DNA from: Bradyrhizobium sp. PSBB068
GTDB taxonomy: Bacteria > Pseudomonadota > Alphaproteobacteria > Rhizobiales > Xanthobacteraceae
Direction of reading: 5' to 3'
Length of the DNA: 64,000 nucleotides
Assembly (NCBI GenBank): GCA_016839165.1
Contig: CP069300.1
Coordinates: 6,076,001-6,140,000, forward strand
Program-made: the position numbers and the translations under genes
Shown here: positions 10,350-56,786 of the stretch, one piece after another
How positions within the stretch are numbered: the stretch's first letter is position 1
Layout of the letters: each line of letters starts with the position of its first letter
The notes under the pieces: generated by a model
Databases searched by the model: none
Seen by the model: the letters and a program-made list of their open reading frames with translations, nothing else
Told to the model about the DNA's origin: nothing

Positions 10350-10363
10350 TTGAGCCGCGTCAA
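10350..10363. promoter_or_regulatory. FixK/FNR-type box before the Nramp gene
   Basis: TTGAGCCGCGTCAA: both half-sites perfect. Its centre is 58 bases before the Nramp ATG (minus strand). Confidence 0.75.
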
Positions 10364-10378
10364 GCGCCGCCATCCGGA

Positions 10379-10392
10379 TTGCGCCAGATCAA
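10379..10392. promoter_or_regulatory. FixK/FNR-type box before the 81-residue gene
   Basis: TTGCGCCAGATCAA, of the TTGC-N6-TCAA class, centred 65 bases before the ATG at 10451. The identical 14-mer recurs at 56773-56786. Confidence 0.6.
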
Positions 10393-10450
10393 CGCCCCGG
10401 ATGATCAGTCATGCCAAAGTTCGGGTTGTTGTTCAGAGGAAGCCCGGGAC

Positions 10451-10696
10451 ATGCAGCACCTCTTCAGCTCGGTCCAACGCTGGTTCAGTGTTTTGGGATG
10501 GCAGGACATTGCGTCCGCCCCGTTCGACTGCGTGATCGAGCTCGCCGTGATCGACGACAAGCGACATCCGTTGGGCTTCCCCTGCATCCGGCGCGTGGAC
10601 GGATTGTTCAATCTAAGCACAATGCAGGCCGTGTCGACGTCGCCGACGCACTGGCGCTATTGGCAGGCCGACGTGCTGCCGATGTGCTGTTGCTGA
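10451..10696 (+). CDS. Small soluble protein, paralogue of the 75-residue protein at 21798
   Basis: 81 residues, ATG after an AGAGGA site. The core reads APFDCVIELAVIDDKRHPLGFPCIRR, then PTHWRYWQ at the end. The same pattern (APFDRDLELAVIEG, VFPCRR, PTHWRSW) occurs in the protein at 21798-22025, so the two are paralogues of one small family, which I cannot name. FixK-type boxes precede both transcription units, suggesting a micro-oxic role. The CCC tail (MCCC) is odd. Confidence 0.65.
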   Translation: MQHLFSSVQRWFSVLGWQDIASAPFDCVIELAVIDDKRHPLGFPCIRRVDGLFNLSTMQAVSTSPTHWRYWQADVLPMCCC

Positions 10697-10698
10697 CC

Positions 10699-10872
10699 GT
10701 GGCCCGGCTCGCCTCCATCGGCAGGTTGGCTTCCGTTCTGCTCTTGCGGCAACGAGCCGCACAATCCGGTCGACGGACCAACTGGACGCTGCTGCTGGCG
10801 CTCGCCTGCACGGCGCTGACCATCGCAGCTGCAGCCTCACTGGTGTATTTTCACTATCTGGATCGGCCGTGA
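10699..10872 (+). CDS. Possible small membrane protein, coupled to the upstream gene
   Basis: A GTG two bases after the stop at 10694-10696 opens a 57-codon frame ending in one strong membrane segment (LLLALACTALTIAAAASLVYF). Its 3' end overlaps the end of fixS on the other strand by 19 bases. There is no separate ribosome site, so translation would depend on the upstream gene. Open frame and hydrophobic helix are the only support. Confidence 0.35.
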   Translation: MARLASIGRLASVLLLRQRAAQSGRRTNWTLLLALACTALTIAAAASLVYFHYLDRP

Positions 10873-11021
10873 TCGCTCGCCGGCTCGTCGTCAGCGATGG
10901 CTCGCCAGGCCGCGCCGTCAAGGTCGTCATACTGTCCGCTCTTCAGCGACCAGAGGAAGCCGAGCAGGCCGACAAAGCCCAACGCAAGAGCAAGCGGCAC
11001 CAGGATAATCAGAACTTCCAT
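10854..11021 (-). CDS. fixS: cbb3 oxidase assembly protein FixS/CcoS
   Basis: 55 residues: MEVLIILVPLALALGF begins a single membrane helix, followed by the CcoS signature FLWSLKSGQYDDLDGAAWR. The ATG overlaps the fixI stop as TGATG, so it is translationally coupled and the last gene of fixGHIS. CcoS is needed for haem and copper insertion into cbb3 oxidase. Length and sequence fit the family well. Confidence 0.93.
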   Translation of the reverse strand: MEVLIILVPLALALGFVGLLGFLWSLKSGQYDDLDGAAWRAIADDEPASDHGRSR

Positions 11022-13207
11022 CAGACCACCTCCCTCGCACGCGCCCTCAGCGCATTGAGCATCACGATGACCGACGAGCCCGACATCGCCGCCGCGGCGA
11101 TCAGAGGTGTGACCAGCCCGGCGATCGCGATCGGTACCGCCAGAACGTTGTAGACGACGGCAAGCGAGAGGTTCTGTCGCATCAACCGGAGCGCCCTGCG
11201 AGACACCTTGACCGCCGCCAGCACCGGCGCGAGACGATCGCCGAGAAACACCGCATCAGCCACCGCCTGGCTCATATGCGTGGCCGTAACCGGCGACATC
11301 GAGGCGTGTGCCGCAGCCAATGCCGGCGCATCGTTCAGACCGTCGCCGACCATCAGCACCCTACAGCCCTGACCCACCAACTGCTCGATCCGACTGATCT
11401 TGTCGACCGGGGAGACCCCGGCACGCCATTCGTGCACGCCGAGCATCTTGGCCGCGAGCTGGACCGCAGGCTCGCGGTCCCCTGACACGATCTCAACGGC
11501 GATGCCCATGCGGACCAACCCAGCCACGACCTCGGCCGCGTCTGGCCGCAGCCGTTGTCGAACCGCGAAGGCGTATCTGCTCTCGCCATAGCTGAACGCG
11601 ACGACTGAGGCTTCCGGGTCGTTGCACAGAATCTCGTTGGCGAGTTCGCCGGCGCCACAGAATGACGGACGACCCAGCCGGATCGGACGTCCGTCATGAA
11701 GGCCGTGAACACCCTGGCCCGGCTCTTCCTGGATGTCCGGCAGCGGCGCCGCCGCTCCGGCGTGGCGCGCGACTGCGGCGGCAACGGGGTGGCGGCTCGA
11801 CAGCGCCAGACGTCCAGCGAGCCGCACGACGTCCTCGGGAATCTCAGCGAGATTGGCAACATCGAGCTCCGGCAGGGTCAGGGTTCCGGTCTTGTCGAAG
11901 ATCACCCGGTCGATCTCGGCGATGCGCTCGATCGCATCGCCGGCATTGAGCAGCACCCCGGAACCAAACAGCGCGCCTGACGCAACGGTCTGCACCGTCG
12001 GAATGGCAAGGCCCAGCGCGCAAGGACAGGTGATGATCAGGACTGCGATCGCCGTCACGATCGAGTCATGAAAGCTCGCGCCGTAGGCCAGCCAACCCAG
12101 CATCGTGAGCAATGCGGTCGCGTGCACGACGGGGGCATACAGCCTCGATGCCCGCTCCGCGAGCCGCAGATAGCGCGAACGCGCCTGCAGCGCGCGATCG
12201 AGCAGCCGGGATATTTCATCGAGCAGCGTGCCGCCGGAGGCCGCGGACGCCCGGACGCGCAACGTGCCGGAGCGGATCAGCGTACCAGCGAACACCGCGC
12301 TGCCGGGCGCGACCATTGACGGCAAGGTTTCGCCCGTAATCAGGCTCTGATCGACCTCCGATCGCCCTTCGATCACATTACCGTCGACCGCGCAGCGCTC
12401 GCCGGGCCGCAACAGCACGATGTCGCCCGGCCGGATCGCGGCCGCCGGAACCGTGCTGATTTCGGTTGGGCTGATGAACTTCGTCGCCGTCTCCGCCTTC
12501 AAGGCCGCGAGGTTACCGGCAAACGCGCGAGTGCGCCGCCGCATGTTCTGATCGAGATAGCGACCGGCGAGCAGGAACGCGACCAGCATGATCGCCGCAT
12601 CGAAGTAGGCATGCTCGGCATGATTGATGGTCTCGATCACCGAGGTCGCCAACGCCAATACGATGCCGATGCTGATCGGCACGTCCATGTTGACGCCGCG
12701 CGCCCGCAGCGCTGACAGTGCCGAGGTGAAAAAGGGCTGAGCCGAATAGGCCACCGCCGGCAGCACGATCAGCGCCGACAGCCAGTGGAAGAAGTCGCGC
12801 TGCTCCGGCAACATGTCCGAAACGTTGCCGGACCACACCGGGATCGACAGCATCATCACGTTCATTGCCGCGAAGGCGGCGACACCCAACCGGCGCAACA
12901 AGCCCTGCGCGCGCTGCGCTTCCAATGTTTCGGCATCATCGCGTTGGAACGGATAGGCCTTGTAGCCGAGTTCGGCGAGCCTGTTCACGAACAGTGCCGG
13001 ATCGAGCGCGCCCGCTTTCCATTCCAGCGCCAGACGACTGTCGGTCAGGTTGACGCGGGCGGAAGTGACGTCCGGAATGGTCGACAGGTTGCGCTCGATC
13101 TTGGCCATGCAGCCCGCGCAGTTGATGCCTTCGACCGCGAGATCGAGATGAATGAGCCCGCCGCCCGCGCTCTTCAGGTAATGTGAAAAATCGATCTCCG
13201 CCTGCAT
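11021..13207 (-). CDS. fixI: Copper-transporting P1B-type ATPase FixI/CcoI
   Basis: 728 residues. The N-terminal metal-binding domain has GINCAGCMAKIER (CxxC). Later come the membrane CPC motif (TCPCALGLAIP), the phosphorylation site DKTGTLT, the HP motif (SSRHPVAAA) and the hinge GDGLNDAPAL. CcoI moves copper across the membrane for the CuB site of cbb3 oxidase. GAGGGTGG precedes the ATG. Third gene of fixGHIS, 10 bases after fixH and overlapping fixS. Confidence 0.96.
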   Translation of the reverse strand: MQAEIDFSHYLKSAGGGLIHLDLAVEGINCAGCMAKIERNLSTIPDVTSARVNLTDSRLALEWKAGALDPALFVNRLAELGYKAYPFQRDDAETLEAQRAQGLLRRLGVAAFAAMNVMMLSIPVWSGNVSDMLPEQRDFFHWLSALIVLPAVAYSAQPFFTSALSALRARGVNMDVPISIGIVLALATSVIETINHAEHAYFDAAIMLVAFLLAGRYLDQNMRRRTRAFAGNLAALKAETATKFISPTEISTVPAAAIRPGDIVLLRPGERCAVDGNVIEGRSEVDQSLITGETLPSMVAPGSAVFAGTLIRSGTLRVRASAASGGTLLDEISRLLDRALQARSRYLRLAERASRLYAPVVHATALLTMLGWLAYGASFHDSIVTAIAVLIITCPCALGLAIPTVQTVASGALFGSGVLLNAGDAIERIAEIDRVIFDKTGTLTLPELDVANLAEIPEDVVRLAGRLALSSRHPVAAAVARHAGAAAPLPDIQEEPGQGVHGLHDGRPIRLGRPSFCGAGELANEILCNDPEASVVAFSYGESRYAFAVRQRLRPDAAEVVAGLVRMGIAVEIVSGDREPAVQLAAKMLGVHEWRAGVSPVDKISRIEQLVGQGCRVLMVGDGLNDAPALAAAHASMSPVTATHMSQAVADAVFLGDRLAPVLAAVKVSRRALRLMRQNLSLAVVYNVLAVPIAIAGLVTPLIAAAAMSGSSVIVMLNALRARAREVV

Positions 13208-13217
13208 GGGGCCACCC

Positions 13218-13718
13218 TCAATTCAGGACGACGCGGTTCTTCGACAGGAACATGCGCCGGCCTTCGGCATCGCCCTCGATCACGAGGTCCCACTGCCCCG
13301 CGCTGATGCCTTCTGCGCGGCCATGAAAACTTCCCGAGCCCGCTTCGGTGACCTCGATCGCCCGGTCAGCACGCCGATCGGTAGGGCGTTGGAGACGGGC
13401 GAGAAAGTTCAGTCCAGCCAGTGGCGCGCCGGCATGGTCGCGCGCTTCGATTGCGACTGCGGCAGCGCCGTCGGGCCGCCGCTCGATATGCGCCTGGACT
13501 TGCCAGCCGCGCTCGTTCTGCTGCCGCGCTGCCAAGATCTCGCGCTGATAGGCGAGGCTGGCGCTGTAGGCGCTGTCGACCTCGGTGCCCGGCAGCGTCG
13601 TGATGGCGAACCGCATCATGACCATGTTGACGCTGATGACGACTGCGAAGAACGCGACCGTCGTGATCAGGACGAAGCGTCCGGTGATGGGTCGCGCGGT
13701 TGAGCTTGTGGCTGCCAT
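13218..13718 (-). CDS. fixH: cbb3 oxidase assembly protein FixH/CcoH
   Basis: 166 residues with one N-terminal membrane helix (FVLITTVAFFAVVISVNMVMM) and a periplasmic FixH domain (LAYQREILAARQQNERGWQV ... GQWDLVIEGDA). CcoH helps assemble or stabilise the cbb3 complex and works with CcoI and CcoG. It lies 15 bases after fixG and 10 before fixI. Confidence 0.94.
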   Translation of the reverse strand: MAATSSTARPITGRFVLITTVAFFAVVISVNMVMMRFAITTLPGTEVDSAYSASLAYQREILAARQQNERGWQVQAHIERRPDGAAAVAIEARDHAGAPLAGLNFLARLQRPTDRRADRAIEVTEAGSGSFHGRAEGISAGQWDLVIEGDAEGRRMFLSKNRVVLN

Positions 13719-13733
13719 GATTGAATTCCGCCG

Positions 13734-15191
13734 TTATGGGAGAACGAAATGGTCGGTTGCGGACGCCACTTCTCCAAGACCGATATCTGTGACGCGGAAG
13801 GTGACCGGCACGGACTTTTCGGCCTTTTCATCGAACGGCGCCGTCACCAGCACACGGAGTTCGGTGGTGGCGTCGCGGCCGAGGATGATCATCGGCCGGT
13901 CTGGCGTGACGGAATCTGCGCCGATGACGTGAAGCTTGGCCTCGGCCGGGCCGTCGACATCGATCGCGATCACGCGATCGAAACCGCGCTTGTTGAGGAA
14001 CCGCAAGGTGTAACCGTTGCGGGTCGCCCCATCGCTGAGCCGCACGGCGATCGGATTGCGGTCGTGCAGCACGTTGACGTCGAGCAGCGTCCGCGACATC
14101 AAGGCGTAGAGCATGACGGCGCAGACCACGGTGATCAGGCCGGCGTAAACGACGGTTCGCGCCCGCACCGGCTTGAACACCTCCTGCATGCCGCCGATAC
14201 GGCGCTGCACATTGATGTCGTTGTCGTATCCGATCAGGCCGGTCTTGCGGCTCACCTTGGTCATGACGGCGTCGCAGGCATCGATGCACAGGCCGCACTG
14301 GATGCAGCCCAGCTGTGCGCCATCACGGATATCGATGCCGGTCGGACATACGGCAACGCACTGGTTGCAATCGATGCAATCGCCTGCCTTGTCGCCGAGC
14401 GCACGGATGTCGAACGCCTTCTTCACCGAGCAGCGCGGCTCGCCGCGATCATACTTGTAGGTGACGTTGAGCGCCCATTCGTCGGTCAGGGCGGCCTGAA
14501 TGCGCGGCCACGGGCACATATAGACGCAGACCTGCTCGCGCATGTAGCCCGCCAGCAAATAGGTCGATGCAGTCAGGATCGCGATCCAGACATAGGCAAT
14601 CGCCGGAGCCTGAAACGTCGCCAGATTGCGCACCAGCGTCGGCGCATCGTCGAAATAGAGCACCCAGGCGCCGCCGGTCCACCAGGCGATCATCAGCCAG
14701 ATCGCGTGCTTCAGCACCCGGCGACCGGCGCGACGCGCGGTCATCGGTCCGGAATCGGCCTTCATCTGCGCGCGACGGTCGCCTTCGACCAGGCGCTCGA
14801 CCGCATAGAACAGATCGGTCCAGACCGTCTGCGGACACAGATAACCGCACCAGATTCGACCGCCCAGGGCATTCATCAAGAACAGGGTCAGCGCAGCCAG
14901 CACCAACAGGCCGGTGAAGTAGTAAACCTCCTGCGGCCACAGCTCGATGAAGAAGAAATAGAAACGGCGGTTTGGAAAATCGATCAACACCGCCTGGTCA
15001 GGCGCGCCGAGGCCTCGATTCCAGCGTACGAAAGGCAGCAGGTAGTAAATGCCGAGACAGACGGCCATCAGCCGCCATTTGATCGAGCGGAACCGGCCCG
15101 ACACGCTCTGCGGGTACACTTTCTTGCGGGGCGCGTAGAGCGGCCCGTCTTCGTCGGTTATGAGTTCATCAGGCGACACGGGCTTGTTCAT
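13734..15191 (-). CDS. fixG: Ferredoxin-like membrane protein FixG/CcoG
   Basis: 485 residues from MNKPVSPDEL; an in-frame upstream start at 15260 would fall inside the FixK box, so 15191 is chosen. Several membrane segments flank two cysteine clusters of the 2[4Fe-4S] type (CIDCNQCVAVCP and CIQCGLCIDACD), followed by a periplasmic Ig-like C-terminus. CcoG is a cupric reductase used for copper delivery to cbb3 oxidase. First gene of fixGHIS; the FixK box is centred 62 bases upstream. Confidence 0.95.
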   Translation of the reverse strand: MNKPVSPDELITDEDGPLYAPRKKVYPQSVSGRFRSIKWRLMAVCLGIYYLLPFVRWNRGLGAPDQAVLIDFPNRRFYFFFIELWPQEVYYFTGLLVLAALTLFLMNALGGRIWCGYLCPQTVWTDLFYAVERLVEGDRRAQMKADSGPMTARRAGRRVLKHAIWLMIAWWTGGAWVLYFDDAPTLVRNLATFQAPAIAYVWIAILTASTYLLAGYMREQVCVYMCPWPRIQAALTDEWALNVTYKYDRGEPRCSVKKAFDIRALGDKAGDCIDCNQCVAVCPTGIDIRDGAQLGCIQCGLCIDACDAVMTKVSRKTGLIGYDNDINVQRRIGGMQEVFKPVRARTVVYAGLITVVCAVMLYALMSRTLLDVNVLHDRNPIAVRLSDGATRNGYTLRFLNKRGFDRVIAIDVDGPAEAKLHVIGADSVTPDRPMIILGRDATTELRVLVTAPFDEKAEKSVPVTFRVTDIGLGEVASATDHFVLP

Positions 15192-15246
15192 CGGTCTGCT
15201 CGAACGAGGCTTCGATTGCAGCCTACATTCCTGCGCCGGGTGCCAA

Positions 15247-15260
15247 TTGACCTCGATCAA
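15247..15260. promoter_or_regulatory. FixK/FNR-type box before fixGHIS
   Basis: TTGACCTCGATCAA, both half-sites perfect, centred 62 bases before the fixG ATG (minus strand). Confidence 0.85.
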
Positions 15261-15287
15261 CGGCCCCCGGATCGGCGCGGGAGGCGG

Positions 15288-16160
15288 CTACTTGCCGCCA
15301 CCCAGGGAGTGCACGTAGACCGCCATCGCTTTGACGGTGACCGGGTCCAGACGACCCACCCAGGCTGGCATGACGCCGGCACGGCCGTTGGTGATGGTTT
15401 CGACCAGCGTGTCCTCGTCGGAGCCGTAGAGCCAGATCTTGTCGGTCAAGTTCGGCGCGCCGACCTCCTGGTTGCCTTTGCCGTCTTCACCGTGGCAGCT
15501 CGTGCAGTTCTCGGCGAAGATCTTCTTGCCCGCCGCCGCGTCGAACTTGGGCGCCGTGGAAAGGCCGGACAGCGAACGCACGTAGTTGGCCACCGTGACG
15601 ATTTCGTCCTTCTTGAGAACCCCGTCGCGGCCAAACGCGAGCATCTGCCCCTCATGCGCCTTGGGGTTCCCCGAGCGTGCGCCGAACTGGATCGTCTGCA
15701 TGATCTGATCGAGCGTGCCGCCCCACAGCCAGTCGTCGTCGTTCAGGTTGGGATATCCCTTTGCACCGGCACCCCCGCTGCCATGGCAAGGCGCGCAGTT
15801 GTCGGCAAACACGGTCTTGCCGCGTGCACGAGCCAGCGCCAGCAGGGCCGGATCCTTCTCGATGTCGGCGAGCGACGCGCTGCCGAGAACCGCCATCTTC
15901 TCGCCGCGCAGTTTCTCCAGATCGGCAAGGTCGGTCGCGACACTCGCGCGCGTCGAATACTGGAACAGCCCCGTGGTGTAGCCCGAGACCAGCGGCCAGG
16001 CCGGGTAGACGATCCAGTAGCCGATCGCCCAGATGATCGTCGCATAGAATGTCAGGACCCACCACCGCGGCAGCGGCGTATTGAGCTCCTTGATGCCATC
16101 CCATTCATGACCGGTGGTGCTGCGGCCGGAAACGCGGTCAATCTCGTCGTGCTCGCTCAT
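15288..16160 (-). CDS. fixP: cbb3 oxidase subunit III, di-haem cytochrome c FixP/CcoP
   Basis: 290 residues. An N-terminal membrane helix (WWVLTFYATIIWAIGYWIVYPAWP) anchors two cytochrome c domains with CAPCH and CTSCH haem motifs. CcoP passes electrons from the bc1 complex or soluble cytochrome c to CcoO. Last gene of fixNOQP, starting 6 bases after fixQ. Confidence 0.96.
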   Translation of the reverse strand: MSEHDEIDRVSGRSTTGHEWDGIKELNTPLPRWWVLTFYATIIWAIGYWIVYPAWPLVSGYTTGLFQYSTRASVATDLADLEKLRGEKMAVLGSASLADIEKDPALLALARARGKTVFADNCAPCHGSGGAGAKGYPNLNDDDWLWGGTLDQIMQTIQFGARSGNPKAHEGQMLAFGRDGVLKKDEIVTVANYVRSLSGLSTAPKFDAAAGKKIFAENCTSCHGEDGKGNQEVGAPNLTDKIWLYGSDEDTLVETITNGRAGVMPAWVGRLDPVTVKAMAVYVHSLGGGK

Positions 16161-16166
16161 GATCGG

Positions 16167-16331
16167 TCAGTCCTCACGCAGCGGCATGCGGGCTGCGGCG
16201 TCGAATTGGGCCTTGTTGCGGGGCCAAAGCGCGTAGGCGACGATGGCGATGAAGATTCCAACGAAGACGGGCGTCCAAAGCGTGCTGATCAGGTTCGACG
16301 CCAGGCTCTCGATTTGAATGATCGCTTTCAT
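16167..16331 (-). CDS. fixQ: cbb3 oxidase subunit IV FixQ/CcoQ
   Basis: 54 residues: one membrane helix (WTPVFVGIFIAIVAYALWP) followed by a short charged tail (RNKAQFDAAARMPLRED). Size, place between fixO and fixP, and sequence all fit CcoQ, which stabilises the complex and its association with CcoP. Confidence 0.94.
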   Translation of the reverse strand: MKAIIQIESLASNLISTLWTPVFVGIFIAIVAYALWPRNKAQFDAAARMPLRED

Positions 16332-16340
16332 GCTCGCCCC

Positions 16341-17075
16341 TCAGCGCAGGTTGGCTTTTTCGTTGTAGAGCTTGAAGTCGACGAGCGTGCCGAGCATCTG
16401 CAGATAGGCGATCAGCGCGTCGAGTTCGGTCGGATTGCCGGCCTTGCCGTCGAAGTTGCGGACCAGGGCCTTCGGATAACGCTTCTGGAACGCGTCGGAG
16501 CCCGGGCCGTCGGGATCGGTCTGCGCCTTCAGATCGGCGGCCGCATTGGCGATCTGCTCTTCGGTATAGGGTACGCCGATCGCGCGGCTCGTCCGCAGAT
16601 GGGCCGCGATGTCGGACAGATCGAGTTCCGTCCTTGCGAGCGAAGGATATCCGGGCATCACCGATTGCGGGACGATCGACCGCGGATTGATCAGATGCGT
16701 GACGTGCCAATCGTCAGAATACTTGCCGCCGACGCGTGCGAGGTCCGGCCCGGTTCGCTTGGAGCCCCACTGGAACGGATGGTCGTACATGCTTTCCGCA
16801 GCGAGCGAATAGTGGCCGTAACGCTCGACCTCGTCGCGCAGCGGCCGGATCATCTGCGAGTGACAGAGATAGCAGCCCTCGCGGACATAGATGTTGCGAC
16901 CGGCGAGCTCGAGCGGCGTATAGGGGCGCACGCCGTCAACTACCTCGATCGTGCTCTTCAGGTAGAACAGCGGCGCGATCTCGACGAGCCCGCCGATGGC
17001 AATGACGGCGAGAATGCCGGCGATCAGGATGATCGAGTTCTTCTCAAAGATCTTGTGTCGGTTCCAGAGAGACAT
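16341..17075 (-). CDS. fixO: cbb3 oxidase subunit II, mono-haem cytochrome c FixO/CcoO
   Basis: 244 residues from [13 protein letters not shown] at 17075. The frame stays open further upstream, but that part is a shadow of fixN. An N-terminal membrane helix ([21 protein letters not shown]) precedes the haem c site CYLCHSQMI; a downstream Met for axial ligation is seen in SVMPGYPSL. It starts 8 bases after fixN. Confidence 0.96.
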
Positions 17076-17083
17076 TGCGCGAC

Positions 17084-49533: not shown

Positions 49534-49546
49534 TCCGTCCCAACAA

Positions 49547-50559: not shown

Positions 50560-51135
50560 GTGATCATCGATCTTCTGCGCCGTGAACACCGCAACATTGA
50601 TCTGCTCCTCACCGTCCTCGAGCGTGAACTGGCGCTTTTTGAGCGCGGGCATCGCCCCAATTATGAGGTTATTCGGGCGATCATCAGCTATTTCGAAGTC
50701 TACCCCGAGGTATACCATCATCCCCAGGAAGACCTGATCTTCTCCAAGCTAAGGCTTCGCGATCCGGATGCGGCCGCAAAGGTCGGTGATCTCGCACGTG
50801 AGCACACGGATGGGGCCGACCGCTTGCATCGCTTCGCCCGGGCAATCGACAGCGTGCTTGCAGGTCGTGAGATTCCTCGACAGGAGGTCGGCAACATCGT
50901 GCGAGATTTTATCGTGCGCGAGCGGCAGCACATGATGATGGAGGAGCGCGATTTCTTCCCCGCAGCCGTAAAGGCTCTATTGCCGCAGGATTGGGAGGAG
51001 GTTAGCTCGGCCCTGACCGATCATAGCGATCCGCTCTTCAGTGACGCCGCCGAAGAGACCTTCGCTACCTTGCGGGCGCATATTCTGCGATTGGAGCTGG
51101 AAGCAGAAGCTGAACGAGACCGAGTTAAGGGATAA
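50560..51135 (+). CDS. Hemerythrin HHE-domain protein
   Basis: 191 residues from a GTG (GGAGAGG upstream), reading MIIDLLRREHRNIDLLL. Di-iron ligands of a hemerythrin fold are visible: REHRN, VYHHPQEDLIF, AREHTDGADR and RERQHMMMEERDFFP. Such proteins bind oxygen or nitric oxide, or guard iron-sulfur clusters. Downstream of a FixK-type box it may scavenge or sense oxygen/NO at low oxygen. Confidence 0.9.
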   Translation: MIIDLLRREHRNIDLLLTVLERELALFERGHRPNYEVIRAIISYFEVYPEVYHHPQEDLIFSKLRLRDPDAAAKVGDLAREHTDGADRLHRFARAIDSVLAGREIPRQEVGNIVRDFIVRERQHMMMEERDFFPAAVKALLPQDWEEVSSALTDHSDPLFSDAAEETFATLRAHILRLELEAEAERDRVKG

Positions 51136-51189
51136 TCCGCGATAGCGGCGGGCGGTAAGGTGGACTACGCGCGGCGCCCCGATCGCGGG

Positions 51190-51203
51190 TTGATCCGAAT
51201 CAA
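51190..51203. promoter_or_regulatory. FixK/FNR-type box before the 56-residue membrane protein
   Basis: TTGATCCGAATCAA, both half-sites perfect, 123 bases before the ATG at 51326 (99 before the alternative at 51302). Confidence 0.68.
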
Positions 51204-51325
51204 GCTCGACCATCCACCCGAATGCGATCCTAGCGTGGCTTGGTGCATGGTGACGACAGATGGACCGATCGCGGCAACGAAACGGACCGACGTTCGACAA
51301 GATGGGCGGCACCGGTGCTCCCGCC

Positions 51326-51496
51326 ATGACGATCGCATCATCGATGCAGACCCTCGAACATCCCGCGCCGCGCCCACGCCACCGAGACGGCCCAACCGTC
51401 TCCTGGTACGGCCGCCTGCTGATTGTCAGCACGTTGCTGCTGGCAGCCGGCTGGGAGATACTCCGACTGCTTCTGACCATCGTCACGCTGGACTGA
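51326..51496 (+). CDS. Small single-helix membrane protein
   Basis: 56 residues from MTIASSMQTLEHP, or 64 from an in-frame ATG at 51302. A polar, Pro/Arg-rich N-terminus is followed by one membrane helix (GRLLIVSTLLLAAGWEILRLLL). Neither start has a strong ribosome site. Unknown function. Confidence 0.5.
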   Translation: MTIASSMQTLEHPAPRPRHRDGPTVSWYGRLLIVSTLLLAAGWEILRLLLTIVTLD

Positions 51497-51518
51497 AGTC
51501 CGTCGATCGGATTTTGCC

Positions 51519-51779
51519 TCAGCAGGACATTGTGCTGTCGTCTTGAGACAGCTCTGTCGAATGGTGCCTGTTCGCGTCCCATTTCCGGAAATACAGCGCG
51601 TCCGCTCCTGGGATGCTCACGCAATGATATCTCTTTGCAAACTCCGCGACGGCGGCAGCAGCCACCTCGTTGATTCCAAACAACCGTTCATAATCGGACT
51701 CGGAGATCCTCAGAATGGCGCCCGCGCCGAGGCGGTTGAGCCGTGATCGCAACTCGGCAAGAGTAAGGTCTACGCCCAT
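51519..51779 (-). CDS. Hypothetical protein, 86 residues
   Basis: Reads MGVDLTLAELRSRLNRLG, then ILRISESDYERLFGINEVAAAAVAEFAKRYHC, then a polar tail. A mixed alpha/beta small domain; not recognised. It is 16 bases after the DUF2892 gene and probably its operon partner. Confidence 0.6.
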   Translation of the reverse strand: MGVDLTLAELRSRLNRLGAGAILRISESDYERLFGINEVAAAAVAEFAKRYHCVSIPGADALYFRKWDANRHHSTELSQDDSTMSC

Positions 51780-51795
51780 CAGCGCCGCCGCATCT

Positions 51796-52008
51796 TCAGA
51801 CTGCGCTGGACTTCTGAAGGGTGCCTATGCCCAACAATGTATAGAGCGGGCGGTACGAGAAGAATGACGTAGCAGTCAGGACGAGCGCGAGGGACCCGGC
51901 GACCAGCCAACCTGCCCCAAGCGCGCCGTCCTTCACGATATAGGCGATCAAAGCCAAACCGATGATGATCCGGAAATACTGATCAATGCGTCCGACATTA
52001 GGTGTCAT
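51796..52008 (-). CDS. DUF2892 membrane protein
   Basis: 70 residues from MTPNVGRIDQYFR after GAGGAGG. The DUF2892 pattern is clear: N-terminal NVGRIDQYFRIIIGLALIAY, a second helix (GWLVAGSLALVLTATSFFSYRPLYTLLGI). It often accompanies rhodanese or sulfur/oxygen stress genes. FixK box about 62 bases upstream. Confidence 0.85.
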   Translation of the reverse strand: MTPNVGRIDQYFRIIIGLALIAYIVKDGALGAGWLVAGSLALVLTATSFFSYRPLYTLLGIGTLQKSSAV

Positions 52009-52062
52009 GGCAATGTGCCTCCTCGTTCCGGCCGCATACTGAACACGCTCCAACGCGCTGCC

Positions 52063-52076
52063 TTGATCATGGTCAA
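52063..52076. promoter_or_regulatory. FixK/FNR-type box between DUF2892 and the phosphotransfer pair
   Basis: TTGATCATGGTCAA, both half-sites perfect. Centred 62 bases before DUF2892 (minus) and 103-154 before the two possible starts of the plus-strand gene. Confidence 0.8.
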
Positions 52077-52223
52077 TTGCACAGTGCGGCCGTCACAACC
52101 ATCGAGATCGATCTGGCGTCGTCGATGTGTCGGCACCTGCGTGGACCGCACCGTTCATATGACGATCTCATGAATGATCTAGCGCAAGGATATCCGGCTC
52201 GTGCCTGCCTAGAATGCGCCACC

Positions 52224-53936
52224 ATGAAAGCAACAATCGTCAGAGAACTCGGACAGCCCGACATTCTGTTGCCGTCGCTGGTTGCGGAAGGGCTGGCCGC
52301 GAACGATCGCATCAAGCTCCGCTTGAGTGCCCTTCAGGCTGCCGTTCAGCATGCCAGGGCTCCACATCGCGCCGTCGCCGATCTCACGATCGAAAGCCGG
52401 GCAGCGGGACTTGCGCCAGCCATGCTGGCAACGCTGATCGGCGGCGCTCATCTGGCAGGGGGCAGCAAGATTGTCGCTCCCGGCCTCGCGCCGTTGCTCA
52501 AGAGCATCGAAGGCGACGCAGAAACCATGATCCGCGCGGTCACCGCCGGTGATCCGACCGAGGGCGAGAAGTTCAGGATACGGCTCGGCACCATTCGAGC
52601 GGCCGGTCATCTCGAAGCGTCGACCGAAATCGAAATTGCCCGCATCGGGCGCCTTACCGGCGTCACGCAGGACGACGCGGACGGCCTTCATCGGCTCGTC
52701 ATGGACCTGCATAAGGCCCTGAACCAGCTCGCCGCAAGTCGCTCCGAGGAGATCGTAGCGGGCGCCCGTGTCTTCGGGCTCCAGAAGGAGGATCGTGCAC
52801 CGGTCGAAAGCTTCATGCGCGGCGTCAATGAGACCCGTGCCCTGAAGTTCAACCACCCCGGCCTCGAGGCCACAGCGGTCCGCTCGGGCGATCGCCTTGT
52901 GATCCAGAATGACATCGGCACCACTGACGCACATGTTGTCGTCATCGCGATCAGGGGCAATGCGGTGACGGTCACCTACACCGACGTGCACCGGTCGCGC
53001 GCCAAGTTCTTCGTGTCGCTGTTCGACGGGTTTTCGCTCAAATGGAGCGGTCTGGACCGGCACTCCGCCGCAGGTCTGGAGGAGGAGAGCGCGTTCTTCC
53101 TGGTCACCGGGCTGCTTGAAGCACCCTCTGCAGCGGATCGCGACGCCTTCCTGACAGCGATTGGCGGGTCGCTGGTCTTCTTGATCGACTGGAACAAGGC
53201 GCGAAAGCTGCTGCGCAACTGGGTCTCGAGGGATGATGCTGCCCGCATACTCGAATGGGCCGCCCGGCACAGGATCGGCCACCGCGCGTTCCTGGAGCTC
53301 GGCGGCGGTGAGCTGCTCGGCGCCGCCGTACGCAACGCGGCCCCAGCCCGGATAGGCTTCGGCGAGCGACTGGACCAGGTGCTCGGTCGAGATGCGGCGA
53401 TCGACCTGCTGAAGGCGACGTTGCGGGTTTCGGCCGACGTGCTGCTCGCCGGGCAATCCTTCAGACTGGCGCGCGACCGTGTCGGCGCGGAAGTCGTCCA
53501 GCATCTCGAGCGTGTCGACCGCACGCTGCTCGCGGTGGTGCTGCGCCAGATCGGATTGGCCCAGGACCTTGCCGTCGCCGTGTCGCGCCACATCGGCGAT
53601 ACGAAGGCCGATACGCACGCCGGAAAGCAGCTTGCTCTCCGGGCCGGTCGAATTGAACAGAAGGCCGACCGGATTGCGATTGAGGCGCGCGGAGAGATCG
53701 CGCGCCTCAATGCCCGGCCACTCATTGGCGAGCTGGTCGATTGCGTCGAGCAAGCCATCGACGAGCTCGAGCAGGCTGCCTTTCATCGCCTCGCTGACAC
53801 GGGAAGCCGCCGACACCGCGCTGCAATCGGCGCTGGTCGCGCTGTCGTCGATCTCGGTGACTGCGACCGAGGTGGCGGCGTCCGGACTTGCCGCAGCAGC
53901 GGAGGTGCAGGAAGGCCGGCGCGCCGATTCCGATGA
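52224..53936 (+). CDS. Large unknown protein paired with the PPDK-like gene, frameshifted near its end
   Basis: 571 residues from MKATIVRELGQPD (an in-frame ATG at 52173 is possible). The N-terminal half is helical; the middle reads DAHVVVIAIRGNAVTVTYTDVHRSRAKFFVSLFD. The C-terminal part (RIEQKADRIAIEARGEIARLNARP ... LVDCVEQAIDELEQAAF) resembles PhoU/DUF47-type helices, tentatively. After EQAAF (53781) the frame becomes Arg-rich and unlike a protein, while the +1 frame continues with good coding sequence to 54150. The intact gene was probably about 642 residues. Twelve bases later comes the PPDK-like gene. I do not recognise the family. Confidence 0.7.
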   Translation: MKATIVRELGQPDILLPSLVAEGLAANDRIKLRLSALQAAVQHARAPHRAVADLTIESRAAGLAPAMLATLIGGAHLAGGSKIVAPGLAPLLKSIEGDAETMIRAVTAGDPTEGEKFRIRLGTIRAAGHLEASTEIEIARIGRLTGVTQDDADGLHRLVMDLHKALNQLAASRSEEIVAGARVFGLQKEDRAPVESFMRGVNETRALKFNHPGLEATAVRSGDRLVIQNDIGTTDAHVVVIAIRGNAVTVTYTDVHRSRAKFFVSLFDGFSLKWSGLDRHSAAGLEEESAFFLVTGLLEAPSAADRDAFLTAIGGSLVFLIDWNKARKLLRNWVSRDDAARILEWAARHRIGHRAFLELGGGELLGAAVRNAAPARIGFGERLDQVLGRDAAIDLLKATLRVSADVLLAGQSFRLARDRVGAEVVQHLERVDRTLLAVVLRQIGLAQDLAVAVSRHIGDTKADTHAGKQLALRAGRIEQKADRIAIEARGEIARLNARPLIGELVDCVEQAIDELEQAAFHRLADTGSRRHRAAIGAGRAVVDLGDCDRGGGVRTCRSSGGAGRPARRFR

Positions 53937-54150
53937 TGCGCTTGCTGCAGTGGCCCGCCTGATCGACGCCGAGCATGCGGCCGATGCCCAGGAGCGTGAC
54001 ATTACCGCGCGCGTCCTTGCCGGCGGTCTCGACGTGGCCGCGTCGCTTGCCGCACTGGAGTTGGCCCGCGCCATCGAACGATCCACCGATCGGCTCGCGA
54101 GCTTCGCACACATCCTGCGGCGCTACACGATGAATGATCTCTCGATCTGA
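53784..54150 (+). pseudogene. Displaced C-terminal part of the gene at 52224
   Basis: In the frame one base ahead of the main gene this reads IASLTREAADTALQSALVAL and on to HILRRYTMNDLSI, about 120 well-behaved helical residues. It has no start of its own. One extra T in the TTT at 53781-53783 would explain the break. It may be a true mutation, a sequencing error or programmed frameshifting. Confidence 0.65.
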
Positions 54151-54162
54151 GGACGAACTGCC

Positions 54163-55764
54163 ATGAAGATCGTAAGAATTGGCGGTCAATCGCGTGAGCT
54201 GCCGTCTGCGGAAGAAGTCGGCGCGAAGGCGACAAACCTCGCACGTATGGCGGCGCTCGGCCTGCCGGTCCCACCCGCCTTCGTGCTACCCGTCAGGCTT
54301 TGCGCGGACGTCGTTGCCGGCAAGGCCCATGCGACCCGCAATCTGCGCGACGGATTGGCGGAAGGCATCGCTTTCCTCGAGCAGGCGACCGGAAAGTCGT
54401 TCGGAGATTCCCGCAAGCCATTGCTGGTCTCGGTGCGATCCGGGGCCGCACGGTCGATGCCGGGCATGCTGGACACCGTGCTGAACGTCGGCTGCACATC
54501 GACAGCCGTGCGCGGCTTGATCCGTGGGACCGGTCGGCCTCACCTTGCGTGGGATTGCCGCCGACGCTTCTTGGAGTGCTATGCCGAAACGGTGGCAGGG
54601 CTCGACCCTGCTCCGTTCGAGGCCCGGCTGAACGAATTGATCGCCGCGGAGGGCGTCGAGAGCGACCGCGATCTCGACAGCGAAGCGCTGGAGCGACTGG
54701 CGTCTGATGAACGAAAGGTGCTGGAAGACGACGATGATGGCTGGCTCGAGGATGCCGGCACTCAGCTCGAGCGTTCGGCCCGCGCCGTCTATCGCTCATG
54801 GATGAGCGAGCGGGCGCAGACCTACCGCCAGCTCGAACGACTGGGGCACCTCCATGGAACCGCCGTTACCGTGCAGGCGATGGTATTCGGCAATGGCAGT
54901 CCGTCGTCGGGTGCCGGCGTGGCATTCTCGCGCGATCCTTCGACCGGCGCGCCAGCAGCCGTGATCGATGTGCTGTTTGACGCCCAGGGCGAGGACGTCG
55001 TGTCGGGCCGTCGTACCCCCGATACGGAGGCTGCACTGGCTCGCGTGCTTCCCGCCATCGCGGACGAACTTCGTTCCATCCTGAAACGGCTGGAACAGGA
55101 GTTCCGTGAGGTGCAGGACGTCGAATTCACCATCGAGAACGGTAAACTGTGGATCCTTCAGACCCGCTCGGCCAAGCGGACGCCCCGCGCGGCGTTGCGA
55201 ATCGCGATTGATCTCGTGCACGAGGGACTGATCACCCGCGAACAGGCGCGGGAGACGATCGCAGGCATCGATCTCGCTACGCTCGTCGAAACATCGCTGC
55301 TTCCAGCACAACCCGCCATCACGGCGGGGATCGGTGCTTCCGGCGGAATTGCCGTTGGACGAGCGACCTTCGACTCCGGTACGGCACAACGCCTCGCTGC
55401 CACCGGCGATCCCGTCATCTTGATGCGGCCCGACACCAGCACCGCCGATATTGCCGGCTTCGCTGCCGCGGCCGGCATCGTGACGGCGGCTGGCGGCCGC
55501 ACCGCGCATGCCTCGCTGGTTGCACGCCAGATGGGCAAGCCGTGCCTGGTCGGGTGCCGTGAGCTTCGCATCGACACCGGCGCCCAGCGCGCGCAGATCG
55601 GACAAGCCGTCATTGCAGCAGGCGACTGGGTCACGGTTGATGCCAACGAGGGCTGCGTTTATCTGGGCCGCGGCGACATCGTCACGCGCCGGCCCGAAGC
55701 TGAACTGGCCGAGGTTTCAGGCTGGCAACAGCCGCACGCGCTGAAGCAAGATGCGACCTCGTGA
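54163..55764 (+). CDS. Short pyruvate-phosphate-dikinase-like protein without the PEP/pyruvate domain
   Basis: 533 residues after GAGGA. The N-terminal ATP-grasp part matches PPDK (GAKATNLARMAALGLPVPPAF; VSVRSGAARSMPGMLDTVLNVG; LWILQTRSAKRT), and the swivel domain carries the phospho-histidine at His449 (GGRTAHASLVARQMGKP). It then ends, so the C-terminal barrel that binds PEP and pyruvate (about 350 residues in PPDK) is absent. It should still make a phospho-histidine from ATP and phosphate; the acceptor is unknown, perhaps the upstream partner protein. Confidence 0.85.
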   Translation: MKIVRIGGQSRELPSAEEVGAKATNLARMAALGLPVPPAFVLPVRLCADVVAGKAHATRNLRDGLAEGIAFLEQATGKSFGDSRKPLLVSVRSGAARSMPGMLDTVLNVGCTSTAVRGLIRGTGRPHLAWDCRRRFLECYAETVAGLDPAPFEARLNELIAAEGVESDRDLDSEALERLASDERKVLEDDDDGWLEDAGTQLERSARAVYRSWMSERAQTYRQLERLGHLHGTAVTVQAMVFGNGSPSSGAGVAFSRDPSTGAPAAVIDVLFDAQGEDVVSGRRTPDTEAALARVLPAIADELRSILKRLEQEFREVQDVEFTIENGKLWILQTRSAKRTPRAALRIAIDLVHEGLITREQARETIAGIDLATLVETSLLPAQPAITAGIGASGGIAVGRATFDSGTAQRLAATGDPVILMRPDTSTADIAGFAAAAGIVTAAGGRTAHASLVARQMGKPCLVGCRELRIDTGAQRAQIGQAVIAAGDWVTVDANEGCVYLGRGDIVTRRPEAELAEVSGWQQPHALKQDATS

Positions 55765-55869
55765 GAACGCGAGCGCACAACGTTTTGAGTCGGCACACGC
55801 GGGCGCGGCGCATCATGCCGCCGCCAGATCAGGCCTGCGGCGGTGCCCCGATTCGTCCGTTATCAGCGC

Positions 55870-56166
55870 CTACTCCGCTCCTCGCCCCACGCTGCGAGCG
55901 GACGCCGCCAACGCCTCATATCCGGCCGCGATCTTCATGAAGTGCTCGCGAGTGGCCTGATCCTGATATCGTCCCGCCTGACGCCTCGTCCGCTCGGCGC
56001 GGGACTCCCAGTAGGCCGCGTCGTCCTGCGGCCCTCTGACGGGCGGTTTCCTTTGCACTGCCCCGGCGGCCTCCTCCGCCGGTTTGCCCGACGGCTGTGG
56101 GTCCGCAGCAGCCTCGCGCCCGCATCGCTTCGACCGACGCCGCTTCGTATGTTCCGAGCGCTTCAC
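55870..56166 (-). CDS. Small basic protein, hypothetical
   Basis: 98 residues from a GTG with GGAGG five bases upstream. A Lys/Arg-rich N-terminus (KRSEHTKRRRSKRCGRE) is followed by a helical tail (AYWESRAERTRRQAGRYQD ... FMKIAAGYEALAASA) typical of short Bradyrhizobium proteins of unknown function. Confidence 0.6.
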   Translation of the reverse strand: MKRSEHTKRRRSKRCGREAAADPQPSGKPAEEAAGAVQRKPPVRGPQDDAAYWESRAERTRRQAGRYQDQATREHFMKIAAGYEALAASARSVGRGAE

Positions 56167-56223
56167 GACAACCTCCGAATTGATAGCTATCCCGCAGCAG
56201 CACGGGCCCACAAGCCATGCAGA

Positions 56224-56595
56224 TCAGTCCATCGCCGGCTCGGAGACCACAGCGCGTTGCTGGAATTGGTCGTATGCCTCCAGCGCGTCGGCGGCATACA
56301 TCAAGGAAGGTCCACCGCCCATGTAGATGGCCATGCCAAGGGCCTCCGCGACCGCCCGGCGATCAACGCCGAGCTTGACCAGCGCCTCAACATGGAAACC
56401 GATACAGCCGTCGCAGCGGGCGGCGACGCCGAGAGCAAGCGCGATCAATTCCTTGGTCCTGGTGTCCAGGGCACCGCTTTTCGTTGCCGCCTGCGCTAGG
56501 GCCGAGAAAGCTCGCATGGCCTCAGGAATATCGCGGCGCAGATCGCCGAGATTGCCGGAAATATGCTTGCAGATGTTGGAATAGTCTTTTCTCAT
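56224..56595 (-). CDS. Carboxymuconolactone decarboxylase/AhpD-family protein
   Basis: 123 residues from MRKDYSNICKHISG. The AhpD-like active site is ALGVAARCDGCIGFHVEALVKLG, with CxxC plus His; the C-terminus reads MYMGGGPSLMYAADALEAYDQF in family style. Members act as alkylhydroperoxidases with CxxC redox chemistry. An in-frame ATG at 56616 is a less likely start. A TTGC-N6-TCAA box lies about 180 bases upstream. Confidence 0.88.
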   Translation of the reverse strand: MRKDYSNICKHISGNLGDLRRDIPEAMRAFSALAQAATKSGALDTRTKELIALALGVAARCDGCIGFHVEALVKLGVDRRAVAEALGMAIYMGGGPSLMYAADALEAYDQFQQRAVVSEPAMD

Positions 56596-56772
56596 ATCAA
56601 TCCCAGTCTTCGGCATTAGGGTTAGCCAAGAAAGGGCGGACCTGCTGACGGGCGATTCGTCAAGGACCGCGCTTCGTCCAACGCAGCCCAGGGACACGAT
56701 CCAGCCTGAAGGACATGCGTGTTCGGCCTGCAAGGATGCGCATCATCTGACGCGCACTTTCGCTGCCGTTCA

Positions 56773-56786
56773 TTGCGCCAGATCAA
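56773..56786. promoter_or_regulatory. FixK/FNR-type box before the AhpD-like gene
   Basis: TTGCGCCAGATCAA, identical to the site at 10379-10392. It lies 178 bases before the ATG at 56595, which is far for an activator site. Confidence 0.45.

Follow-up and report, generated by a model that had tools for sequence, protein, structure and literature searches.

A FixLJ-FixK low-oxygen block and its FixK boxes as a probable single island inserted at gapR in a Bradyrhizobium chromosome

In Sinorhizobium meliloti, the FixK-dependent low-oxygen genes and their regulators are clustered on one replicon, pSymA, a megaplasmid with nod and nif. For Bradyrhizobium diazoefficiens, two reports give the FixK2 box as TTGA/C-N6-T/GCAA; hemN2, phbC2, ppsA and phosphoketolase-acetate kinase (bll2518-bll2517) are described there as FixK2-dependent, and Mla-type ABC, universal stress, CBS and fixGI genes as FixK2-dependent or microoxia-induced (PMC9104804, PMC6515984). 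A third paper places the FixJ elements TAAG and CSNAATWT at -64 and -33, 31 apart, and proposes that Caulobacterales acquired fixLJ-fixK horizontally from Rhizobiales (PMC4999443). The window analysed here (the whole 64-kb stretch of DNA) carries gene kinds already known as FixK2 targets; what is new is the relocating package. We put at about 0.83 the probability that they form one genetic unit of ~50 kb inserted at gapR, with an oxygen switch in two tiers and the genes under its control. Its limits are as follows:

6943..56815, inserted island, FixLJ-FixK low-oxygen block, about 49.9 kb
6547..6942, plus strand, left copy of a segment made up of the 5' part of the cyclase gene and the cyc-gapR spacer; its end is where the gapR stop codon would lie
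56816..57145, plus strand, right, rearranged copy of the cyclase/spacer segment, joined to gapR
6927..7874, minus strand, AraC-type regulator, left end gene (PF12833); homology to other islands begins at 6929-6932
56224..56595, minus strand, carboxymuconolactone decarboxylase-family protein, right end gene (PF02627)

The insertion point is the 3' end of gapR, with the left junction at 6929-6942 and the right at 56742-56816. The flanking direct repeats, whose left and right copies were defined partly by comparison with empty sites of relatives, are 86% identical over 234 nt by blastn. The preliminary description had proposed a 46-kb island at 10350-56786; the island stood, but its extent did not, the actual unit being larger. 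An insertion with mappable ends and its relocation in relatives had been missed there. The island is not at the gapR site in 19 of 22 relatives, where M15 and gapR are at most 2.5 kb apart. In G164, cyc-gapR is contiguous to the contig limit; G165 carries additional DNA separating M15 from cyc, yet cyc adjoins gapR; and in G283 an island end fills the site. When 7-22 kb to the left of eight islands was compared, the flanks proved to be of seven unrelated kinds, the single shared one being that of G164 and G283, with gyrB. G009 carries the island twice, at a distance of 172 kb. Gene content differs among copies for Nramp, the chemoreceptor, hemerythrin and the PEP-synthase-like gene. In its empty orthologous site, sharp ends, direct repeats and a divergence and composition (GC 0.626 vs 0.65) unlike the core, the block resembles a genomic island. 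An integrative conjugative element was considered and rejected: no integrase, transposase or transfer genes were found among the ORFs scanned (some small ORFs left out), and the 64-kb window has no tRNA.

We infer that the island spread by horizontal transfer. An old, vertically inherited unit, a paralogue that parted early from the fixLJ-fixK locus of the clade, was relocated by chromosome rearrangement and was lost in many relatives, without recent horizontal transfer, is possible, if doubtful. Island and core relatedness rank alike, since the islands of the core-nearest G283 and G164 (PykA 99%) are likewise the closest ones (FixL 97% and 94%), so vertical descent plus relocation stays viable; several genomes also hold an island-type copy plus a smaller 79-83% copy. 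However, island synonymous divergence was ~2-3.4 fold that of the core flank in the eight relatives measured this way (dS 0.57-0.79 vs 0.23 in G004, 0.43 vs 0.16 in G283, 0.48 vs 0.15 in G164), and island positions differ even between nearest relatives.

The preliminary description had placed fixLJ and fixK inside the block, and profile and structure matches to FixL, FixJ and FixK2 agree with it:

22116..23546, plus strand, fixL, oxygen-sensing heme-PAS kinase, DUF4118 domain at the N-terminus (PF00989, PF13493, HisKA, HATPase)
23543..24151, plus strand, fixJ, response regulator (NF006900, 282.6 bits, cut-off 255)
49624..49658, plus strand, candidate FixJ-P site upstream of fixK, TAAG at 49624 and CSNAATWT at 49651
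49717..50394, plus strand, fixK, CRP/FNR-type activator (PF00325, PF00027; FixK2 structure 4i2o, E 1.4e-59); start inferred, family searches run on 49642-50394

FixL aligns without gaps to the FixL heme-PAS structures 8js5 and 1dp6 and keeps the His of its YRxxHD stretch, which we take to be the heme ligand. It is the sole full FixL detected in the genome (the only one at E<=1e-120), shares only ~58% identity with the FixL usual in Bradyrhizobium, and scores 533 bits against its closest NCBIfam model, NF041777, under the curated cut-off of 850. FixJ matches structure 5xso over 202 residues. FixK scores 239.6 bits against its closest model, NF050806 (Caulobacter-type FixK), under the cut-off of 300, and its translation from the inferred start has no N-terminal FNR cysteine cluster. 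At the position of FixK2 Cys183, Ser stands in the window and all five G004/G009 copies and Cys in G007, G032, G019, G014 and the island-type locus L012. The window's FixK thus lacks the Cys183, near the DNA-binding helix, of the redox-controlled B. diazoefficiens-type FixK2, and with Ser in place of this redox-sensitive Cys, it probably escapes that oxidation control. The two elements of the candidate FixJ-P site are 27 nt apart and form the sole such pair in the window; the block around them is conserved in 15 loci.

The remaining genes and intergenic boxes, TTGA-N6-TCAA being called strict, are these:

7884..8405, minus strand, MarR-type regulator (PF12802)
8931..10298, minus strand, Nramp metal transporter (PF01566), missing from some island copies
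10350..10363, FixK box, strict, paired with 10379
10379..10392, FixK box TTGC..TCAA, paired with 10350
10854..13718, minus strand, fixS, fixI, fixH, cbb3 assembly and copper P-type ATPase (PF00122, PF05751, TIGR01511); fixS labelled by position after fixI and conservation, not by family search
13734..15191, minus strand, fixG (PF11614)
15247..15260, FixK box, strict, 62 nt before fixG
15288..18706, minus strand, fixP, fixQ, fixO, fixN, cbb3 terminal oxidase (TIGR00782, TIGR00781, TIGR00780 over cut-off; PF05545)
18796..18809, FixK box, strict, 96 nt upstream of fixN
19279..19292, FixK box, strict, intergenic
19631..19644, FixK box TTGA..GCAA, 71 nt upstream of an ORF of 75 aa
19998..20747, minus strand, CBS-BON protein 1 (PF00571, PF04972)
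20806..20819, FixK box, strict, before CBS-BON 1
21072..21085, FixK box, strict, mid divergent spacer
21370..21383, FixK box, strict, 63 nt ahead of the pair of ORFs upstream of fixLJ
24211..26205, minus strand, chemoreceptor (Cache, HAMP, MCP; PilZ under its cut-off)
26758..26771, FixK box, strict, from the pattern scan
27258..27271, FixK box TTGA..GCAA, 56 nt before hemN
27321..28673, plus strand, hemN, oxygen-independent coproporphyrinogen III oxidase (TIGR00538 over cut-off)
29244..29257, FixK box, strict, upstream of phosphoketolase
29371..29384, FixK box TTGC..TCAA, 91 nt before phosphoketolase
29469..33071, plus strand, phosphoketolase and acetate kinase (NF003621, TIGR00016 over cut-off)
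33428..36398, minus strand, MlaD/MlaF/MlaE-type lipid ABC transporter (PF02470, PF00005, PF02405)
36452..36503, two FixK boxes in a divergent spacer, TTGA..GCAA at 36452 and strict at 36490
36972..39629, minus strand, ADP-forming acyl-CoA synthetase fused to a GNAT domain (PF13607, PF13549, PF00583)
39707..40183, minus strand, CBS protein 2 (PF00571)
40287..40300, FixK box, strict, common to CBS 2 and alcohol dehydrogenase
40357..42917, plus strand, zinc alcohol dehydrogenase (ADH; PF08240) and APH/AAA_33 fusion protein (PF13671, PF01636)
43664..43677, FixK box TTGC..TCAA, from the box comparison among loci
43704..45401, minus strand, PhaC, poly(3-hydroxyalkanoate) synthase (PF07167; TIGR01838 499.9 bits, under cut-off 622.65)
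45963..47186, minus strand, CBS protein 3 (PF00571) and short-chain dehydrogenase (PF13561), PhaB-like by context
47242..47255, FixK box, strict, common to two divergent genes
47352..49345, plus strand, universal stress protein, small c-type cytochrome, CBS-BON 2 (PF00582, PF00034, PF00571)
48557..48570, FixK box, strict, 59 nt before CBS-BON 2
50489..50502, FixK box TTGA..GCAA, 64 nt upstream of the hemerythrin gene
50560..51135, plus strand, hemerythrin-domain protein (PF01814)
51190..51203, FixK box, strict, from the pattern scan
51796..52008, minus strand, YgaP-like membrane protein (PF11127)
52063..52076, FixK box, strict, 61 nt upstream of the YgaP-like gene
54163..55764, plus strand, PEP synthase/PPDK-like protein (PF01326, PF00391)
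56773..56786, FixK box TTGC..TCAA, before the carboxymuconolactone decarboxylase-family gene

The window holds 27 boxes of the three classes first noticed (15 TTGA-N6-TCAA, 7 TTGA-N6-GCAA and 5 TTGC-N6-TCAA); the strong excess in the preliminary description was upheld, but not its exact counts of 14, 4 and 4. As claimed there, all 27 lie within 10350-56786, and the pattern scan of the 64-kb window found no three-class box in the flanks. The density is indeed far above background: for TTGM-N6-KCAA, 29 sites were observed in the window against 3.15 expected, and 0 of 100 shuffles attained 29; the two sites beyond the three classes (23022 and 58308) are TTGC-N6-GCAA, both within coding sequence. 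The boxes had all been placed in intergenic spacers, which by gene calls is right for 23 of 27 (15+4+4; box 48557, counted among them, overlaps the final bases of the upstream gene) but not for the four within genes at 13993, 25850, 31419 and 45133. Most intergenic boxes lie ~55-120 nt upstream of a start codon, close to the 50-100 bases first given, and the paired boxes reported in divergent spacers (10350/10379 and 36452/36490) are real.

Genome-wide, there are 92 strict sites in 7.67 Mb, and the island has 15 of them (all those of the window) against 0.60 expected; that is 15/92 in 0.65% of the genome, with an uncorrected binomial p of 6e-17 for a region chosen after the sites were seen. 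Loose sites number 426, 29 of them in the window, and the reversed-pattern control gave 290 (vs 426 loose) and 20 (vs 92 strict). The genome scan proposed as a check found no match for the window, since no other stretch of similar length has more than 4 strict sites among the 88 of 92 located. However, the claim that most of one low-oxygen regulon is gathered here was not supported as worded: 10 of the 15 strict sites in the island (hand count) and 19 of 65 examined outside the window (77 exist) lie 45-125 nt before a gene, so that only about one third of the well-placed strict boxes located (10/29) are inside the island and about two thirds outside. Such outside boxes, together with further CRP/FNR proteins in the genome (the next-nearest 34% and 29% identical to the island FixK), would suit a reading in which another host CRP/FNR protein, e.g. 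that at 1,678,128, reads the boxes and the island fixK is secondary. This is improbable, as the island FixK is the sole close FixK2 homologue found, and boxes and fixK co-occur in other islands.

The fix gene names, and a cascade known from rhizobia (PMC4999443, PMC9104804), might suggest that a legume symbiont simply carries its usual symbiotic fix locus here, as a symbiosis-island fragment. This is very improbable: in the genome, rated 100% complete and with bacteriochlorophyll genes, no nifH was detected (the two strong NifH-family matches are BchX and BchL, the other four short and weak), and no nif or nod family was found among the window ORFs scanned.

Box footprints were aligned between the window and the related islands G009a, G009b and G004a. 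The box was kept in all 48 alignable cases of 69 (21 had no alignment), which are not independent because the islands are mutually related. Changed positions were 2/384 (0.5%) in half-sites, 64/288 (22%) in spacers and 1007/3250 (31%) in flanks, and chance boxes inside genes were kept in only 2 of 12 cases. With every alignable box kept and half-sites nearly unchanged against spacers and flanks, the island boxes look functional. A by-product of base composition or a repeat, to which the slightly lower island GC might point, has next to no chance against the shuffles, the genome-wide rarity of the reversed pattern and half-sites kept while spacers change.

Spacing is also stable. The box before ADH lies at -63/-63/-65/-64/-66 in five loci, window and G014 included, and in four loci, again counting the window, that at 47242 lies at -60 to -62 and -102 to -103. 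Among ten relative loci compared, a box stands at -58 to -64 of fixG in seven and at -55 to -71 of the 75-aa ORF in six. The hemN box recurs at -59 in G004a and -61/-62 in G004b/G009c, the phosphoketolase box at -86 (G009a), -92 (G004a) and -76 (G014), and four other loci have one at -62 to -64 of the YgaP-like gene. Three island copies keep both 36452 and 36490, and three keep the box at -63 of the ORF pair upstream of fixLJ. hemN has no upstream box in G009a or G009b, box 29244 is absent from G009a and G004a, and in the small loci G009c and G004b the 420 nt next to fixN and to fixG are free of boxes.

From homology and sites we infer the signalling order and low-oxygen induction. At low oxygen, the heme-PAS kinase FixL would phosphorylate FixJ, and FixJ-P would act at the single FixJ-type promoter in the window, upstream of fixK. 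FixK dimers would then bind TTGA-N6-TCAA-type boxes 55-120 nt before ~18 genes. Predicted targets are the high-affinity cbb3 oxidase and its assembly factors, oxygen-independent heme synthesis, a phosphoketolase/acetate kinase plus acyl-CoA synthetase route, PHB synthesis, the lipid transporter, CBS proteins and stress proteins. The box at 21370 before the fixLJ gene group suggests possible positive feedback. Since the genome's single detected FixN (cbb3-type oxidase), the sensor, the switch and the boxes lie in one block, which in relatives is absent from this place or sited elsewhere, the whole low-oxygen response seems packaged as one unit able to change position.

The usual Bradyrhizobium locus (G007, G032, G019) likewise has fixLJ, fixK, oxidase and CBS/USP relatives in ~20 kb. 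However, it has 3-4 strict boxes per 80 kb vs 15 in the island, its FixK2 has Cys, and the island's metabolic part is absent from the 80-kb stretches. The parallel, diverged cluster of G014 has the same gene kinds, similar box spacing and 14 strict boxes per 80 kb, but usual-type FixLJ (58%), Cys-FixK2, a different gene order and dS >1 to the window. Whereas pSymA of S. meliloti is a megaplasmid, the Bradyrhizobium island is a 50-kb chromosomal insert. It differs from the B. diazoefficiens cascade by Ser for Cys183 in FixK; homologues in that species lie in several separate groups (locus numbers ~2517-2518, 2758-2769, 4634-4658 and 6060-6074), while the island is one block with its regulators. 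In the Caulobacterales proposal the regulators moved together, as is supposed for the island; there, however, the regulators alone would have moved and taken over existing sites (PMC4999443), whereas in the island targets and boxes are included.

The loose FixK/FNR-type pattern TTGM-N6-KCAA occurred 29 times in the window against 3.15 expected from shuffles, and the excess of boxes that the preliminary description had claimed was thus borne out. The three classes distinguished there (TTGA..TCAA, TTGA..GCAA and TTGC..TCAA) numbered 15, 7 and 5 sites, all enclosed by positions 10350 to 56786; by gene calls, 23 were intergenic and 4 lay inside genes. Within the FixLJ-FixK block (the island, about 6943-56815, 49.9 kb) there were 28 loose sites where 2.8 were expected and 15 strict sites (TTGA-N6-TCAA) where 0.6 were expected, with p-values, 6e-17 for the strict sites and 3e-19, that are uncorrected for region choice. 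The whole genome of strain PSBB068 (7.67 Mb, two contigs, C1 and C2) carried 426 loose and 92 strict sites. Among the 88 of these 92 that were located, the densest strict groups outside the island held 3 sites within 1.6 kb (at 2.015 Mb) and 4 sites within 24 kb (around 4.51-4.53 Mb); no comparable density was seen elsewhere and the claim is therefore not overturned.

Chance or base composition as the source of the boxes was ruled out by the shuffles, a reversed-pattern control and a conservation footprint. For the last, the 23 intergenic boxes were followed in three islands of two relatives (G009a, G009b and G004a; 69 cases). The box was kept in all 48 alignable cases, where changes affected 2 of 384 half-site positions, 64 of 288 spacer positions and 1007 of 3250 flank positions. 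In the controls, six chance boxes within genes gave 12 alignments, only 2 of which still held a box (21 of 96 half-site positions changed), and the eight half-site positions moved by 22 nt were changed at 116/344 and 96/304. The cases are not independent because the three islands are related, yet despite this kinship the contrast between half-sites and spacers was large. The spacing from box to start codon was maintained too, including in a more diverged cluster of relative G014. Exceptions were hemN, which had no upstream box in G009a and G009b, and the box at 29244, which had no counterpart in G009a and G004a. In the small fix loci of the same two genomes (G009c and G004b) neither fixN nor fixG had a box within 420 nt.

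The island had also been described as holding most of one low-oxygen regulon. We examined 65 of the 77 strict sites outside the window: 33 were upstream of genes, 24 coding and 8 other. By hand count, 10 of the 15 island strict sites stood 45-125 nt before a gene, against 19 of the 65 examined outside; therefore the island is the densest portion of the predicted FixK regulon and not its majority. The earlier interpretation was thus partly supported and extended, while its wording on "most" of the regulon is rejected on these counts. The 20 genes 3' of outside sites include an aldehyde dehydrogenase, a CBS-BON/cytochrome c/OpgC group and a ClpA-like gene. A mini-cluster at C1:2013000-2019000 (locus L191) had three strict boxes with CBS-BON, small cytochrome c and OpgC-like genes. 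Adjacent strict sites TTGACACTTGTCAA and TTGACAAGTGTCAA, mutual reverse complements, lay between divergent genes at C1:7293749 and 7293771 (L224). The 14-mer TTGATGTGAGTCAA was common to window position 19279 and, on the other strand, C1:5402757 (L213), where it preceded, by 76 nt, a 199-aa ORF that gave no Pfam match. The perfect palindrome TTGACCGCGGTCAA was present three times on the small contig (C2:11721, 11834 and 13251; L226), two of them close together 5' of one gene; these are probably the operator of some other regulator.

Gene content of the island
Oxidase genes: fixNOQP-fixGHI, with fixS by position (Pfam, NCBIfam)
Regulators: FixL, FixJ, FixK, MarR, AraC (Pfam, NCBIfam)
Metabolic genes: hemN, phosphoketolase, acetate kinase, ADP-forming acyl-CoA synthetase with GNAT domain, alcohol dehydrogenase, PhaC, short-chain dehydrogenase, PEP-synthase-like (Pfam, NCBIfam)
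Other genes: Mla-type ABC transporter, universal stress protein, hemerythrin, chemoreceptor, Nramp (Pfam, NCBIfam)
CBS proteins: four, two of them CBS-BON (Pfam)

The genome had one FixN. Several short island ORFs gave no match in the Pfam search, and at 52209-54113 long ORFs ran on both strands (570 aa on plus, 634 aa on minus), neither with a clear Pfam family. An APH-like kinase domain fused to an AAA_33 domain (41337-42917) adjoined the alcohol dehydrogenase gene and stayed beside it in the clusters of G009, G004 and G014; in other Alphaproteobacteria, relatives lay close to fixL in six loci.

The PAS domain of FixL aligned with solved FixL structures, its N-terminus held a DUF4118 domain, and FixJ scored above the curated model cut-off; FixL and FixK scored under the cut-offs of their nearest models. 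The best solved relative of FixK was FixK2 (4i2o, E 1.4e-59). The position of the redox-sensitive Cys183 was Ser in the island FixK and in the five copies in G004 and G009, whereas it was Cys in the usual Bradyrhizobium FixK2 of G007, G032, G019 and G014; Cys was also seen in one island-type locus (L012), and Pro in G008. A block 5' of fixK, conserved in 15 loci, held TAAG and CCAAATTT. These fit the FixJ elements TAAG and CSNAATWT, as given in PMC4999443, and were the sole such pair in the window. No FixK box was found upstream of fixK; one was present before the short ORFs that lead into fixLJ. This arrangement fits an order that would run from FixL to FixJ, then to fixK and the boxes, with feedback onto fixLJ possible through the box before the short ORFs. 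Simple orthology to the fix locus usual in Bradyrhizobium was ruled out, FixL being only ~58% identical to the usual one over residues ~100-472.

In all ten relatives first compared, the left flank (sigma-54 regulator, YkuD, M15 peptidase) continued into gapR, DUF1244, DUF1036 and pyruvate kinase within 2.5 kb, and 9 of a further 12 had the same empty arrangement. In G164, cyc and gapR were contiguous up to the contig end, in G165 additional DNA separated M15 from cyc, and in G283 the far end of an island was joined at the gapR stop codon. On the left side of the window, native sequence reached the gapR stop position and the island began from 6929-6942; on the right, gapR was preceded by another copy of the 5' portion of the cyclase gene plus spacer. 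The two copies were 86% identical over 234 nt and carried spacer sequence absent from G004 and G009 and present in the empty site of G164, which suggests that the native site was duplicated. These comparisons identify the block as an insertion. The left copy (6351-6785) was a cyclase gene lacking ~1.2 kb internally relative to G004 and G164, and the right copy (56816-57145) a short piece, rearranged and containing a tandem repeat of 25 nt. With the gapR 3' end of G283 also joined to an island part, gapR may be a recurrent insertion point. That locus (L282, G283:C2, 1-14923) held the far island part with 9 strict boxes in 14 kb and resembled G009a, G134 and G123. A tRNA-targeted or integrase-carrying element was set aside, as no tRNA was found in the window and no integrase among the scanned ORFs.

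Left flanks of eight islands (the window, G283, G164, G004a, G134, G123, G088 and G265; 7-22 kb each) had no blastn match above 150 bp except between G164 and G283, whose common flank includes gyrB; the G164 flank did not match the first or last 20 kb of contig 1 of PSBB068. G009 carried the island twice, at a distance of 172 kb (27 and 28 strict boxes per 80 kb), and G004 once (18 per 80 kb); both genomes also had smaller fix loci, with 6 and 8. With up to 6 FixL candidates scored in each of 265 congeneric genomes, a FixL of 79% identity or more occurred in at least 25 genomes, PSBB068 included, and one of 88% or more in at least 17; at least 11 had two or more such copies. By the same scoring FixL was absent at E<=1e-120 in 32 of the 265, some of them incomplete. 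In 14 FixL-negative genomes, all rated at least 99% complete, FixN had no match in 9, only ~30% matches in 3 and ~60% in 2.

Synonymous divergence (dS) of the island exceeded that of the core flank against G004 (0.57 for the fix part and 0.79 for the metabolic part, core 0.23), G009 (0.55-0.57 and 0.73-0.78, core 0.28), G283 (0.43, core 0.16), G164 (0.48, core 0.15), and G088, G123, G265 and G134 (0.52-0.66, core 0.23-0.26), although codon bias of core genes could bring down core dS somewhat. For G283 and G164 the metabolic class was left out, since it consisted of one paralogous match each (dS 1.39 and 1.98); G014 (1.17 and 1.38 vs 0.75) and G007 (0.80 vs 0.64) did not enter the island-to-core ratio, being holders of the usual locus. 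The higher island values favour separate histories of island and core, through transfer or deep paralogy. Relatives ranked alike by island and by core, which counts against recent transfer from outside; by core dS the nearest were G283 and G164, nearer than G003.

BchX and BchL scored above NCBIfam cut-offs at C1:1605427-1635414 (L258, L259) and nifH was not found in the genome, so the host appears to be a photosynthetic Bradyrhizobium that does not fix nitrogen. A legume symbiosis locus was ruled out by the same lack of nifH. We give even odds (about 0.5) to the reading that the whole oxygen-response regulon, with sensor, response regulator, second-tier activator, linking FixJ promoter and about two dozen boxes on its own targets, is one autonomous cassette that inserts at varied chromosomal sites, may be present twice in a genome, and gives high-affinity respiration to lineages otherwise without FixLJ, FixK and cbb3 oxidase, its FixK lacking the cysteine redox brake. 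If so, this lack would reduce the cassette's dependence on host physiology. Two-tier regulons are usually viewed as scattered networks evolving gene by gene; in this case the regulators share a single block with their targets, a block that changes position and is duplicated, and acquisition of a whole regulon therefore becomes directly testable. The "fix" genes are also set apart from nitrogen fixation, because nifH was not detected in the host, and the island supplies a natural example of a FixK in which the Cys183 redox switch is missing.

The components of the island are already known; a FixLJ-FixK regulon that relocates as one block, in a host where nifH was not detected, did not appear in titles and abstract starts of the open-licence papers searched. 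The usual fix loci differ in density, with 3-4 strict boxes per 80 kb in G007, G032 and G019 (likewise in the fix locus of G008) vs 15 in the island. G014 carried a separate diverged cluster (L149-L152, G014:C1:2282000-2361999) in which genes of these kinds come with 14 strict boxes and with FixLJ/FixK2 of the usual type, unlike the island with its diverged FixL and Ser-bearing FixK; it may represent a second package of this sort that was assembled independently. In B. diazoefficiens the same gene kinds are reported to be FixK2 targets or microoxia-induced, and their locus numbers form at least four groups (PMC9104804, PMC6515984), whereas in the window they stand with their regulators in a single block.
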